From an uncultured Gammaproteobacteria bacterium (GTDB lineage Bacteria; Pseudomonadota; Gammaproteobacteria; CAKMZV01): a DNA stretch of 37,738 nucleotides. The stretch spans positions 79,156-116,893 of the forward strand of contig CAKMZV010000002.1 of NCBI GenBank assembly GCA_929200535.1, in the 5' to 3' direction. The translations under genes and the position numbers were made by a program. Position 1 is the first letter of the stretch. Every line of letters starts with the position of its first letter. The notes under the pieces are model-generated. The model was given only the letters and a program-made list of their open reading frames with translations. It searched no databases and was not told where the DNA came from. Positions 1-29,343 of the stretch are shown one piece after another.

Positions 1-991
1 CTATGAAATTTACCGTGGAACAAATAACAATCGCTCAGAAAGTAATAAAATTTCCAGCCCCACCTCCAGCCCTGATATCGACACTGGGCTTAACTCCAAC
101 ACCACTTACTACTACTGGATAAAAGTCTGCAATGTGCAAGGCACTTGCTCTGATTTCTCCCCAGCCAGCTCGGCCACCACGCTGCTAAATGCACCACAAA
201 ATATTAGCTTAAACGTTGATAGTGCCTCCCAAATTACGGTATCGTGGAGTGCAGTTACAGGTGCTAAAAAGTATGAAATTTATCGTGGAAAAAATAGCGA
301 TGCCTCAGACCGTAGTGAAATTTCCAGCCCCACCTCCGGTCCTTATATCAACACTGGGCTTACCCCCAACACCACCTATTACTACTGGATAAAAGCCTGC
401 AATGCACAAGGCACTTGCTCTGATTTCTCCCCAGCCAGCTCAGCCACCACGCTGCTAAATGCACCACAAAATATTAACTTAGACGTTAATAGCACCTCGC
501 AAATTACGATATTATGGGACAGAATTGCGGACACTAAGCACTATGAAATTTACCGTGGAACAAATAACAATCGCTCAGAAAGTAATAAAATTTCCAGCAC
601 CACCTCCAGCCCTTATATCGACACTGGGCTTAACTCCAACACCACCTACTACTACTGGATAAAAGCCTGCAATGCACAAGGCACTTGCTCTGATTTCTCC
701 CAAGTCAGCTCAGCCACTACGCTGCTAAATGCACCACAAAATATTAGCTTAAGCGTTGATAGCACTTCGCAAATCACGGTATCATGGATTGCAGTTACAG
801 GTGCTACAAAGTATGAAATTTATCGTGGAAAAAATAGCGATGCCTCAGACCGTAGTAAAATTTTCAGCTCAAGCCTTTCCTCTTATGCCGACACTGGGCT
901 TGAGCCCAAGACCCTTTATTACTACTGGATGAAAGCCTGTCAAACTGGTGATGCTTGCTCTGATTTTTCCTTACCGGTTACTACAAGAACT
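1..991 (+). repeat. In-frame 270-bp tandem repeats encoding the Fn3-like units
   Basis: The word gctgctaaatgcaccacaaa recurs at 181, 451 and 721, an exact 270-bp period (90 codons). About 3.7 units are visible and the array continues beyond the left edge. Units alternate in type: the segments at 1 and 541 are nearly identical, and those at 271 and 811 share another sequence, so there is a higher-order 540-bp period. The last unit diverges after about position 855. Confidence 0.93.
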
Positions 992-12544: not shown

Positions 12545-13534
12545 TTAAGGTTGAAAGATGCCTGAATAATGTTTTTTTAGGGTGCTGGGGTCTCCCATTT
12601 GACCACTTACCAGTAAGGTTGATAGTGAATATTTTTTACTAATTTCAAGGCTACGTTTGATGGGTAGCACCATAAAAGCCGTTGCATAGGCATCAGCAAG
12701 CGCGGTTGAAGAGGAGATAACGCTACTGGCAATAATGTTATGAGTAATTGGTTTGGCGGTTGATGGGTCGATGGTATGGGAAATGGTTTTACCATTGTAT
12801 TGTTTGAAATTTCGATAAGAGCCAGAGGAGGCAATCGCTTGATTTTTAAGTTCGATAGTTTGCATAATAATACGTTGCACAGGATTGGGCTGTTCAATGG
12901 CAACTTTCCAAAATTGTTGTTTTTTATTTTTGCCTTTGGTGCGGATTTCTCCACCTATTTCTATTAAATAACGATTGATTTGTGCACTCTGTAGAATTTC
13001 AGCAATTTTATCTACAGCATAGCCTTTAGCAATGGCTGAAAGGTCAATATATATTGGCTTTTTTTTGTAAAGTTGGTTTTTTTTCAGGATGATATTGGTA
13101 TAACCAATTTCGTACTTTTTTGGTTGTTGTTTTTCATTATCTGCTCCAAACCCCCAATAATTGACCGCCTTGCCCACGGTAATATCAAAAGCCCCATCGG
13201 TTTGTTTGCTAACTGTAATTGAGAGCTTGATAATTTCTTCTAATTGGGGCGAGATGGGTAACCATTTGTTAATGGGTGATTGATTAAGTGTCGAGATTTC
13301 CGAGTCGTTAATATAGGTAGATGCTACCTGATTAAATTGTTGTAAATAATCTTCGATAATTTTCTGTTGGATTAAGGGAGAACCAATGTATTTAACCATC
13401 CAAGTGGTGCCCATTGTTTTGCCTTGTAATATTTGCTCATTTTCTTCACTTGAGCAGGCAAATAAAAGTAGTGCTATTCCTCCGTAAAAAAGCTTTTTTT
13501 TATAGGCTACCTTATATAGTTGTAGATGGGGCAT
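12545..13534 (-). CDS. apbE: FAD:protein FMN transferase ApbE (lipoprotein)
   Basis: ApbE covalently attaches FMN to Thr/Ser of periplasmic or membrane proteins such as the NqrB/NqrC or RnfG/RnfD subunits, using FAD and Mg2+. The 329-residue product has a signal peptide ending in a lipobox LLFAC (lipidated Cys27), placing it on the periplasmic membrane face. Family motifs: GKTMGTTW (38-45), DGAFDITVG, DLSAIAKGYAVD, and SHTIDPSTAKP near the C-terminus. Its ATG overlaps the fdx stop (TAATG), so the two are probably coupled. No Nqr or Rnf genes are in the window to identify the target. Confidence 0.93.
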   Translation of the reverse strand: MPHLQLYKVAYKKKLFYGGIALLLFACSSEENEQILQGKTMGTTWMVKYIGSPLIQQKIIEDYLQQFNQVASTYINDSEISTLNQSPINKWLPISPQLEEIIKLSITVSKQTDGAFDITVGKAVNYWGFGADNEKQQPKKYEIGYTNIILKKNQLYKKKPIYIDLSAIAKGYAVDKIAEILQSAQINRYLIEIGGEIRTKGKNKKQQFWKVAIEQPNPVQRIIMQTIELKNQAIASSGSYRNFKQYNGKTISHTIDPSTAKPITHNIIASSVISSSTALADAYATAFMVLPIKRSLEISKKYSLSTLLVSGQMGDPSTLKKHYSGIFQP

Positions 13535-20072: not shown

Positions 20073-20199
20073 TTTTTTGGTATGCTTTTTGTATTGTTTG
20101 TTGCAGGTTCTTATTATTGAGTTGGTTTACTCGTTCTTTTTCTTCATCGTCAGCAGTAGAGATGCTGAATATCTTATTTTTTAATTCTAAAAGTTCCAT
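20065..20199 (-). CDS. Small 44-residue ORF between DNA methylase and valS
   Basis: ATG at 20199 opens a 44-codon frame (MELLELKNKIFSISTADDEE, then KERVNQLNNKNLQQ...) that starts inside the last 26 bases of the methylase gene and ends 8 bases past the first base of the valS ATG. It is charged, Gln/Asn-rich and probably helical. The double overlap suggests translational coupling of methylase, this ORF and valS. I do not recognise it; it could be a real small protein, or the frameshifted tail of a once longer methylase. Confidence 0.4.
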   Translation of the reverse strand: MELLELKNKIFSISTADDEEKERVNQLNNKNLQQTIQKAYQKNG

Positions 20200-21778
20200 T
20201 GTGTTTTTCTATATTCAAATATTGCCATAAATTTTCTTCATAGTACAGATTGTCATTTTGAGCAAAAAAATCACTAAAAATAGGCAAACATTCTAAATCA
20301 TTTCGTAGTACTTTATGGGTATTAAAAATTTTTTTAAATAGCCAACTCATTATTTCAGTATTCATCAAAAATACTAATTGTTCTTCTGTGATGGAAATAT
20401 TATTTTCAGTAAATGGTGTGTTTTTTTTATTGAGAATGAAAAAATTGGCACTATTTAAAAAATACCGTTGCTTATTATCTAACGCAAAAATGAGTTCAGA
20501 GTTAATAAAGCGATAAACTATTTTTTTATTAGCAAGATATAGGCTTTTATTAGCTGTTTGTTGAAATTTAGAAAAATCTTCAACAATATAAAATTGGGCA
20601 GCATTTATTTTTTCTTTATCAATGTCACATCCTCTATAAATAGGTTTGCATCCTTTTTCTTGTGTGCTTTTAAGGTGTTTTGCATTATCGCCAGTAACAA
20701 TCCCTAATCCCCATTTAGCTTTTCCTTTAAGGTTTTGATGAGGGATTGAATATAGCTGTGAAATTACTTTTTCCTCTTCAGTAGAGGTATCAAAATTAAT
20801 AATTGAATTTGGGTTGTTAAAAAAGCTTTGTTGGTCTCTTTGATAGCTTTTTTTGTTTTTAAAAAAACATTTGGTTTTAGACTCACTGCTATTATTATTT
20901 TGAACGATAACGCTATAGGCTCTGGTTTGTAATCCAGTAAATGGCTTTTCATGGTTTATAAGCCTTAATACTCTTTTTTCTAATACTTTTTTGCGAACTG
21001 AGCTAAAAGCCCCTATATTAAAAAATGCCTCAGGTAGTAGGATGCCAAGATAACCATTTTTTTCTAATAAATCTAAGGTTAATATTACAAATAGAGCAGC
21101 AGAGTCTATTTTTATTCCGTGGTTAAATTTTTTGGCGTAGTATATTTTTTCCTCGCTATTAAATTTATATCCCCAAGGAGGATTAGTAAAAATAAAATTA
21201 TATTTTTGATGATGGTTTTCTTCTAATAAGTTAAGATTTTTAATGTGTTGGGTAGTTTTTCCAGTTGTCTGATAAAAACGTTTATTAGCAATCTCAAGAG
21301 CAGTTTGATCAATATCAAAACCATAAATATTTTCAGGCTTAAAGCCTTTTTCTAAGGCTTTAATTAGAAAGTTTCCTGTACCACAACAGGGATCTAAAAA
21401 AGTATCATTATCATCGACACAAACAATCGCCTCAAACATTTCCTCTATAACGGCTTCTGGTGTGTAGTAAATGCCTTGTTTATTCCTATCTGCCACACTA
21501 AGAGATTGCTCGTATGCAGAAGATTGCTGATGTGCATTATCATCTTGTAGTATGTTTAGAACAGGTGTTTGAGAATCATTGTAATGTTGCTTATTAGCCC
21601 GTTTATTTAGCTTGCTTTTCCCCAAAATATATTGTTTGAAATAAGCATAGCTTTCATAGCTAATGTGACCGTTTTGTGAAGAGACCAAGAGCTTTGTTTT
21701 TAACCAGTTATGCAGTGTTGCATTAGAGATATTTAGTTCATCAACTATGGTTTGAAAGCTAACGTACTTCTTGTGCAT
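20174..21778 (-). CDS. N6-adenine DNA methyltransferase, TaqI/Eco57I-like
   Basis: A 534-residue protein. Residues 1-50 look like a helix-turn-helix (FQTIVDELNISNATLHNWLK). Then come motif X GIYYTPEAV (102-110), SAM motif I LDPCCGTGNFL (128-138), the acidic GFDIDQTALEIA (153-164), and the catalytic motif IV NPPW (199-202), marking amino-methylation of adenine. The C-terminal half carries a TaqI-like recognition domain (IYRGCDIDK; YLANKKIVYRFIN). No cognate nuclease is adjacent, so it may be an orphan methylase, or a fused Eco57I-type enzyme, although no nuclease motif is evident. It sits 15 bases after pepA, where holC is found in enterics, suggesting gene replacement or insertion. Recognition site unknown. 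Confidence 0.82.
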   Translation of the reverse strand: MHKKYVSFQTIVDELNISNATLHNWLKTKLLVSSQNGHISYESYAYFKQYILGKSKLNKRANKQHYNDSQTPVLNILQDDNAHQQSSAYEQSLSVADRNKQGIYYTPEAVIEEMFEAIVCVDDNDTFLDPCCGTGNFLIKALEKGFKPENIYGFDIDQTALEIANKRFYQTTGKTTQHIKNLNLLEENHHQKYNFIFTNPPWGYKFNSEEKIYYAKKFNHGIKIDSAALFVILTLDLLEKNGYLGILLPEAFFNIGAFSSVRKKVLEKRVLRLINHEKPFTGLQTRAYSVIVQNNNSSESKTKCFFKNKKSYQRDQQSFFNNPNSIINFDTSTEEEKVISQLYSIPHQNLKGKAKWGLGIVTGDNAKHLKSTQEKGCKPIYRGCDIDKEKINAAQFYIVEDFSKFQQTANKSLYLANKKIVYRFINSELIFALDNKQRYFLNSANFFILNKKNTPFTENNISITEEQLVFLMNTEIMSWLFKKIFNTHKVLRNDLECLPIFSDFFAQNDNLYYEENLWQYLNIEKHNGTFRIKK

Positions 21779-23394: not shown

Positions 23395-24285
23395 CTATAA
23401 ACATAAGGTTAGTTGAGCTTGGGTTTTTATTTCGGGTTCTTTGTTTATTGTTATATCATAGTTTGTAATCAGGGCTTCTACCATTGGGTTTCTATTTTTT
23501 TCACTCCCTCCAAGATGATAGAAGTGTTCCCTTGTTAAGATGTTGAATTTATTCCATATTGAATTAATGTATTTATTTTCACGAAAATCATTATGATGCC
23601 AAGTAGATAAAATAAATTTACTTTTTGTTTTTGATAAAGCATCAAATAGGGCGTTTTCCATATTTTCATCCCATCCATTAAAATAATCTGCGTGTCTATC
23701 TATATAAGGTGGGTCGCAATAAATAATATCAGAGGATTTTGCTTTAGAAATAGTTTTTTCAAATGATTGACACACAAACTCAAAATTTTTTAAAGATAAA
23801 GTATGGCTTATATGAGAAGTTTGATTAACAATTTTACTGATATAGGCTTGTGCAAATCGTTGAGGCTTTTTGCAAAAAGGAGTGTTAAACCCTCCTTTTT
23901 TGTTAAAACGAATCATTCCATTAAAGCAAGCTCTATTTAAAAATAGAAAATCTAAAGGAGCGTGTTCATTATTAAATCGTTCTCGTATTTCATAATAATG
24001 CTCTTCTCCTTTTTCAAGAAGGGTGGCTCCTTCTGTATATAAGTATTCTTTAACTCGCCGGGGGCTAATTTCATTACTTGCTATTGCTTGATAAAATTTA
24101 ATTAGATGAGGGTTAGTGTCACACAATGTTGCTTGGTTTGGTGCAAGATTAAAACCGACTACTCCAGTTCCCATAAAAGGCTCTATCCATTTGCCATTGA
24201 AGTTAGGTGGAGAAATAGATTTTATCCAAGGAACTAATTTTGTTTTTATTCCTTGAGATTTTATTGGCGGTACGTGAATTTTCAT
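23395..24285 (-). CDS. EcoRV-like N6-adenine DNA methyltransferase (D12 class)
   Basis: This should protect the host by methylating adenine in the site cut by the adjacent nuclease, by homology GATATC. The 296 residues follow M.EcoRV closely as I recall it: [17 protein letters not shown], then SAM motif [13 protein letters not shown] (35-46), [18 protein letters not shown] (111-128), [19 protein letters not shown], catalytic DPPY (191-194), and [13 protein letters not shown]. Motif order is that of the alpha/D12 (Dam-like) group. The ATG overlaps the stop of the nuclease gene (TAATG), so nuclease and methylase are probably coupled, with the nuclease first. No controller gene is visible. Confidence 0.93.
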
Positions 24286-25124
24286 TATTCTTGATTTGCT
24301 TTCTTACGCCTTAGGACAATTTTTGCCACGTCTCCCTTACGATAAGCCACGAAATCTTGGAGAGAGGAAATCTTTTTTGTTGTCCTTTTGCCATCTGATA
24401 GGGTGATTTTATTGTAATTCATCCAATAGTCATCAAACCAGTCTTCACCAAGTTTTGCAAACATTCCATTACCATTAATAATATCATTAATGTGATTGAT
24501 GCTACCTATATTTGCGGTGTTTCCGCTACCACTTTTATCGCTGGCAATACGCCACTTTTCTGCAACAAAAAATTGCAAATCATTGATTACTGACGTGACT
24601 GATTGCAAATCACTAATATGATGCTTTTTAGCTTCATTTATTGTTGTATTGTCGGCTCGATTGTAAATAACCCCTAAACAAAAATGCCCTGAGTATTCGC
24701 CATAGGGGAATTGTATATTTTTTGTGCTCGTGCGTTCTGTAAAATATTTGCCGTGTGAGCCTAAAGTAAACCCATTACACAAAAAGGGCTTATTTGGGTT
24801 TCTGTATGTTGTTTTAAAATCCACTGCAAATTTGATGCTTTCATCTTGTGTTTTTACAAACGTAATATCAGGATAATAATTTTGGTGTTCGGCTAATACA
24901 ATTTTATATCCGTTTTTTTGAGCAAATTCAATCATTTTTGGAAACAAATGAATTTCCAAAACTTTTGATATGATTTTTGTATCGGAAGAAATGGTATAAA
25001 TATTTTGGAATACATCAATAAAACCTTTTATCGTCCATTGCCCATCTTTTGTACTTATCTGCTCTTGAAAATTTCTTACAAAATTTTTTAATTGAGCTTC
25101 AAAATCTTCCTTTGTTGAGTTCAT
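24285..25124 (-). CDS. EcoRV-like type II restriction endonuclease
   Basis: The predicted PD-(D/E)XK nuclease is 279 residues (EcoRV 245), with a 12-residue longer lead and small insertions. The catalytic set of EcoRV (E45, D74, D90, K92) maps with identical spacing to E57, D86 (YYPDITF), D102 and K104 (AVDFKTTY). The recognition-loop region reads [11 protein letters not shown], against GSGNTTNIGSI in EcoRV, so GATATC specificity is likely. WRIASD, TKNIQFP and FDDYWMNY also correspond. It starts 26 bases after hemE and overlaps the methylase ATG. Activity is inferred from intact residues only. Confidence 0.92.
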
Positions 25125-25143: not shown

Positions 25144-25153
25144 AGGTAGCCTA
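25144..25153. repeat. 10-bp direct repeat, hemE side of the R-M pair
   Basis: AGGTAGCCTA here covers the hemE stop codon (25151-25153) and the following bases. With the copy at 23374-23383 it brackets the R-M operon, the two lying 1,770 bp apart. It could be a trace of integration or chance. Confidence 0.35.
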
Positions 25154-28545: not shown

Positions 28546-29343
28546 TTATATTTTATTTGAAAGATAAGTAATAACTGAAGCACAGATGCCTACAATTAAT
28601 TCAGCCTCTTCATCTGACGGCGGTGCTTGTCCTGGTTTTATATGACGAGCATTGTTAGATGCATATCCCCACGCTTTCGTTATAGCTTCATCTAAGGGAG
28701 AAGGTATTAGGTTTGGGTGTTTTTTTATAATTTCCCCAAGTGTTGCATTTGAATCACCACATGCCTTTCTTGCAACATACTCTAAAGCAGCCATTGAATG
28801 CTGAATGGCTCCAGTTATATCGGGTTGTGGTCGCTTAGCAAGATCTGAAAACGCCTCCTTCAACTCTCTTCTTGCAGTATCCATTTCTGATTGTAAAAGA
28901 GCTTTATCTGCTACCTCAATTATGTGTTCATTTCCCTCGGAGCTTCTATATTCTATTAGCCCTTTTGTTAATTTCCAACCTATCCCATTATCAATAAAGT
29001 ACTCATTTATTTCAGTTTCAAACTCTTTGGCGTTGTCAATTGAGGTGTCTTTAATTTCCTTATATATCGTTTCGACAATATCGTAAACCTTATACCACTG
29101 GCAATTATCTATTAGCTCTCTGTTCTCATCATCAACGTTTGGATATTCTGTCCAGTTATTATCATTTTTTCTTTTTCTGAGAACTCTGCATATTAATGTT
29201 CGAAGTGGCTCAGGAGTAAGTCCACAATCTTTAGCAATATTTGTCAATACTCCTCTAAACTCATGTGGTGCATCTTGTCGAACGGATATATCAGCAGAGA
29301 TTGCTTGATAATTGTTTCGTTTTGAAAAGGTATCTCTTTGCAT
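28546..29343 (-). CDS. AbiJ-N / Abi_C-like putative abortive-infection protein
   Basis: A 265-residue soluble protein with no signal peptide. The N-terminal half (TFSKRNNY, APHEFRGVLTNIAKDCG, WYKVYDIVETIYKEI, FETEINEYFIDNGIGWKL) resembles the AbiJ N-terminal domain type 4. The C-terminal half (AALEYVARKACGDSNATLGE, KAWGYASNNARHIKPG, AELIVGICASVITYLS) resembles the Abi_C/HEPN-like domain. Such proteins are candidate phage-defence effectors, possibly RNases, but a classical HEPN RxxxxH is not clear here (an ARH triplet is present). Neighbours are DUF2442 and DUF4160 genes on the same strand. It is convergent with rluC. Assignment is by remembered patterns. Confidence 0.6.
   Translation of the reverse strand: MQRDTFSKRNNYQAISADISVRQDAPHEFRGVLTNIAKDCGLTPEPLRTLICRVLRKRKNDNNWTEYPNVDDENRELIDNCQWYKVYDIVETIYKEIKDTSIDNAKEFETEINEYFIDNGIGWKLTKGLIEYRSSEGNEHIIEVADKALLQSEMDTARRELKEAFSDLAKRPQPDITGAIQHSMAALEYVARKACGDSNATLGEIIKKHPNLIPSPLDEAITKAWGYASNNARHIKPGQAPPSDEEAELIVGICASVITYLSNKI

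Follow-up and report, generated by a model that had tools for sequence, protein, structure and literature searches.

EcoRV is encoded on the E. coli plasmid pLG13 (NC_005019), which is small and mobilizable, in a system in which a helix-turn-helix gene and the endonuclease gene are transcribed divergently from the methylase gene. The catalytic residues of EcoRV are D74, D90 and K92, and its reading elements are the R- and Q-loops (PMC4081073). Relatives on Rhodothermus marinus pRMAR01 and Antarctobacter pSMS3-1, and in a Cycloclasticus sponge symbiont (LWTM01000064), form a tandem subgroup with the methylase downstream of the endonuclease. Avoidance of the recognition site has been described for about half of the genome-site pairs with an independent endonuclease and methyltransferase, and more often where the system is long-resident (PMC4687349). 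Here we analyse a locus at which such a gene pair and a shortage of GATATC occur together.

An EcoRV-family gene pair in the window

The window, that is, the whole stretch of 37,738 bases that was analysed (C2:79156-116893, reaching the contig end, in a genome of 1.97 Mb and 50 contigs), encodes both components of an EcoRV-like restriction-modification (R-M) system:

23395..24285, minus strand: M.EcoRV-like D12/Dam-family N6-adenine DNA methyltransferase, 296 aa (PF02086 3.6e-51; TIGR00571 1.5e-63)
24285..25124, minus strand: EcoRV-family type II restriction endonuclease, 279 aa (Pfam PF09233 6e-119; PDB EcoRV 2e-40)

Both genes are intact, and the active-site and recognition residues of the endonuclease are conserved. 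Its residues 23-263 cover positions 2-244 of the 244 in the PF09233 (Endonuc-EcoRV) profile, and E57, D86, D102 and K104 align with EcoRV E45, D74, D90 and K92, with the catalytic equivalents D86, D102 and K104 being invariant across 81 aligned proteins. The R-loop reads GSGNTAN instead of the GSGNTTN of EcoRV (182-188); the sole change, T187 to A, is common to all 81 aligned proteins of the tandem subgroup. In the Q-loop, the equivalents of EcoRV Q69 and N70 are present (for E45 and the individual loop positions we take the assignment in EcoRV as given). Taken together with the GATATC deficit described below, the conserved loops suggest that the endonuclease cleaves GATATC. The methyltransferase is 63% identical to the methylase of the E. 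coli EcoRV plasmid and contains an invariant DPPY motif.

Compared to the pLG13 system, the endonuclease is homologous (34% identity) and has like catalytic and loop residues except for T187A, whereas the arrangement differs: the genes are in tandem, with the methyltransferase start overlapping the endonuclease stop by one base (TAATG), there is no controller gene, and the pair is surrounded by housekeeping genes on a contig of 117 kb, its neighbours being genes whose translations read as uroporphyrinogen decarboxylase (hemE) and leucyl aminopeptidase (pepA). The endonucleases of the tandem subgroup named above are 55-77% identical to the one described here, with like residues and the methylase likewise downstream; we see no notable difference, and the present pair is another member. 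A relative is encoded in at least 445 genome stretches, and in the best 80 of these the methylase lies directly downstream of the endonuclease at 79 loci.

The word TAGGCTACCT flanks the pair, at 25144 and 23374. It also occurs at 13503 and 34678, giving four copies in the window and seven in our genome sample of 410 kb (20 stretches, L001-L019 plus the window, about a fifth of the genome), where base composition leads to an estimate of about 0.6; it is often extended as TAGGCTACCTCTATT. We considered and rejected TAGGCTACCT as a target-site duplication of the R-M pair: five further copies lie elsewhere in the sampled fifth of the genome, and the two flanking ones therefore do not argue for an insertion. 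Other dispersed exact words in the 410 kb are GAGACCTTTGCA (31 copies), AAAAGATATGAC (23) and AGACGGACGTAT (16), which suggest interspersed repeats. The window also encodes, at 28546-29343 on the minus strand, a protein with AbiJ N-terminal domain 4 (PF18863) that matches the PADLOC candidate defence family PDC-S32.

GATATC in the window, the genome and other genomes

An exact count finds a single GATATC in the window, against an expectation of 12.4 from base composition and 10.3 from a maximal-order Markov model; given a second-order expectation of 10.2, the Poisson probability of one site or fewer is 4e-4. When synonymous codons are shuffled in the 32 open reading frames of the window, 8.9 sites are expected and none is observed, and none of 1000 shuffles reaches zero. 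On the plus strand HATATC occurs 54 times (AATATC 26, TATATC 17, CATATC 11). The preliminary description, made by eye, had given one GATATC with about ten expected, and about fifty occurrences of the core behind another base; the counts agree, and no site had been overlooked.

The lone site lies in a repeat array at the very start of the window:

2..939, plus strand: 270-bp tandem repeat array, 3.5 units (Tandem Repeats Finder)
74..79, no strand: sole GATATC of the window (exact count); units at 344 and 614 and one upstream unit have TATATC

To judge from the translation, the 270-bp units are probably fibronectin-type-III-like domains. The array is interrupted by a scaffold gap of 100 N, at which the window begins, and more units follow upstream of the gap. 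As had been pointed out, the sister copies at 344 and 614 read TATATC; with the upstream unit reading the same, a T-to-G change in the lone-site unit is the simplest reading. The earlier claim of a recent single-base change is thus probably right as to a derived T-to-G, whereas ‘recent’ is a presumption, for a site that adjoins an assembly gap in an array. It is unlikely that the lone GATATC is an assembly or sequencing error and the true window count zero: just 74 bases separate the site from the gap, and the tandem units around it resemble one another, but single changes are common between the units (82% matches) and another GATATC is present in the array upstream, 248 assembled bases away and at another position of the repeat (window -174, C2:78981).

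GATATC is depleted genome-wide, about threefold, which is milder than the tenfold depletion of the window. The whole genome (1.967 Mb) contains 193 sites against an extrapolated expectation of about 588. The 410-kb sample contains 49 where 122 are expected, which is the lowest z of all 4096 hexamers, and the observed/expected ratio (O/E) for the genome is about 0.33-0.40 (0.40 by Markov model in the 410-kb sample). In a stretch-stratified test conditioned on the inner tetramer, GATATC ranks first of 64 palindromes (odds ratio 0.30, z -8.2), and it still ranks first when the window is left out (odds ratio 0.33, z -7.4). The genome-wide comparison with a Markov expectation, proposed earlier as a check, therefore yields a clear deficit. 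The O/E is below the avoidance threshold of 0.78 used by PMC4687349, our statistic being close to, but not identical with, their Kr.

At the genome-wide rate, the probability of one site or fewer in 37.7 kb is 0.12, and the extra depletion of the window is therefore within chance. For the same reason, and with a dispersion p of 0.10, we rejected a local purge of GATATC near the R-M locus. One sampled stretch, L015 (C3:80001-100000), is AT-rich (GC 0.31) and contains 9 GATATC, a surplus over its share (P 0.003, uncorrected for the 20 stretches examined); it is perhaps recently acquired DNA from which GATATC has not yet been purged.

We compared GATATC between 40 other whole genomes with the pair and 54 sampled members of the class (this genome excluded), using GATATC density and the ratio to CTATAG; G042, with a partial EcoRV-family match that contains a stop, is not among the 54 controls. 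The median number of GATATC per kb is 0.107 in the carriers and 0.258 in the controls, 2.4-fold lower (one-sided p 7e-9), and the GATATC/CTATAG ratio differs as well (p 3e-5). Merely three of the 54 sampled class members have a density below that of this genome. The carriers vary, from one with 6 GATATC in 2.8 Mb to G275 with 1255 in 5.0 Mb and little deficit. Several phyla are represented among the carriers and a single class among the controls, with differing phylogeny and composition; the deficit goes with the pair across these distant genomes, which is an association and not a controlled comparison.

Other resident R-M systems and avoided palindromes

Three further type II systems provide an internal check:

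C15 (L112): HaeIII-like R-M pair (endonuclease PF09556 9e-100; methylase against M.HaeIII 1.6e-130)
C44 (L111): HinP1I-like R-M pair (PF11463 3.7e-57)
C2 near 40 kb (L113): MjaI-like R-M pair (PF09568 5.5e-30)

The established sites of these families we take to be GGCC for HaeIII, GCGC for HinP1I and CTAG for MjaI. Among the 16 palindromic tetramers, the genome has its lowest values for GGCC (0.10), CTAG (0.18) and GCGC (0.34). Including GATATC, the site is depleted for every resident type II system whose endonuclease family allows it to be assigned, four of four. The depletion of CTAG counts for less, because this tetramer is scarce in most bacteria regardless (PMC4687349). The cases here are like the ‘orthodox’ type II avoidance of Rusinov et al. 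2015 (PMC4687349) in having an independent endonuclease and methyltransferase, a palindromic site and an O/E <0.78; there is no difference in kind, but a single genome here combines four resident systems, the site of each being depleted.

The AccI-type word GTMKAC is avoided more strongly than GATATC, with 15 occurrences against 117 expected by codon shuffling in the 410-kb sample. Its O/E is 0.13-0.19 (0.13 by codon shuffling), and that of GTYRAC is 0.44. Profiles of the AccI and HincII endonucleases had no match in this genome, nor did they have any in 14 control genomes. The window does encode a solitary methyltransferase:

20174-21778, minus strand: solitary adenine methyltransferase, 534 aa, with N6_Mtase, Eco57I and TaqI_C domains

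This protein is a full-length match to the PADLOC type II methyltransferase model PDLC03356 (1e-154); its gene lies between genes reading as pepA and valS, with no adjacent endonuclease. An M.AccI-like identity was rejected: the protein is only 25% identical, over part of its length, to a methylase beside an AccI-family endonuclease. A search of viral contigs for relatives of the orphan found none. One might speculate, with considerable doubt, that the ranking of avoided palindromes reads out the R-M repertoire, such that GTMKAC would mark an AccI-type system that has been lost or has gone unrecognised, with the TaqI-type orphan methyltransferase as its possible remnant.

Origin and meaning of the avoidance

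The shortage of GATATC is, with high confidence, ordinary avoidance of the sites of a resident chromosomal EcoRV-like type II R-M pair. The endonuclease would cut unmethylated GATATC and the methyltransferase would shield the host copies by N6-adenine methylation. Since methylation is never perfect, occasional self-cleavage would impose a small cost on each chromosomal GATATC, and such sites would be lost over many generations. The outcome would be a genome-wide shortage, in which one site in a 37.7-kb stretch is compatible with chance at the genome-wide rate. We infer that the pair is probably active at present and that self-cleavage would be the selective force. The deficit suggests that the present pair, or a predecessor that also recognised GATATC, has been resident for a long time.

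It seems improbable that the avoidance was instead left by an older, different GATATC-specific system, or by exposure to foreign DNA from hosts of such systems, with the present pair being recent. Avoidance can outlast a lost system (PMC4687349), and such pairs sit on plasmids of other bacteria and therefore move; however, the resident pair suffices, there is no second EcoRV-family match in the genome, and the direct repeat flanking the pair is a dispersed word and no sign of recent insertion. The weakest reading, that GATATC is low purely from general palindrome avoidance or composition bias, is very improbable: the codon-shuffle median O/E over hexamer palindromes is 0.62, with GATATC at 0.41 and rank 21 of 63, but the first ranks of GATATC among the 64 palindromes conditioned on the inner tetramer and the 4096 hexamers by z, the fact that most palindromes with a still lower O/E hold GGCC, CTAG, GATC or GCGC (several GGCC, CTAG or GCGC), and the fewer GATATC in genomes with the R-M pair than in others all speak against it.

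Avoidance of the sites of the resident pair thus remains our preferred reading. The preliminary description had traced the avoidance to long exposure to an EcoRV-like nuclease. Such a nuclease and its methyltransferase are encoded in the window itself, and the genome-wide deficit is there, although part of it belongs to general palindrome avoidance. An R-M specificity had been predicted blind from the avoidance before the enzyme was located approximately 24 kb from the lone GATATC.

Site avoidance is a well-known effect, and the pair belongs to a known kind. The present case adds one chromosomal EcoRV-type system, and one genome with several depleted sites that match resident enzymes. Word avoidance can help to predict restriction specificities in uncharacterised genomes.
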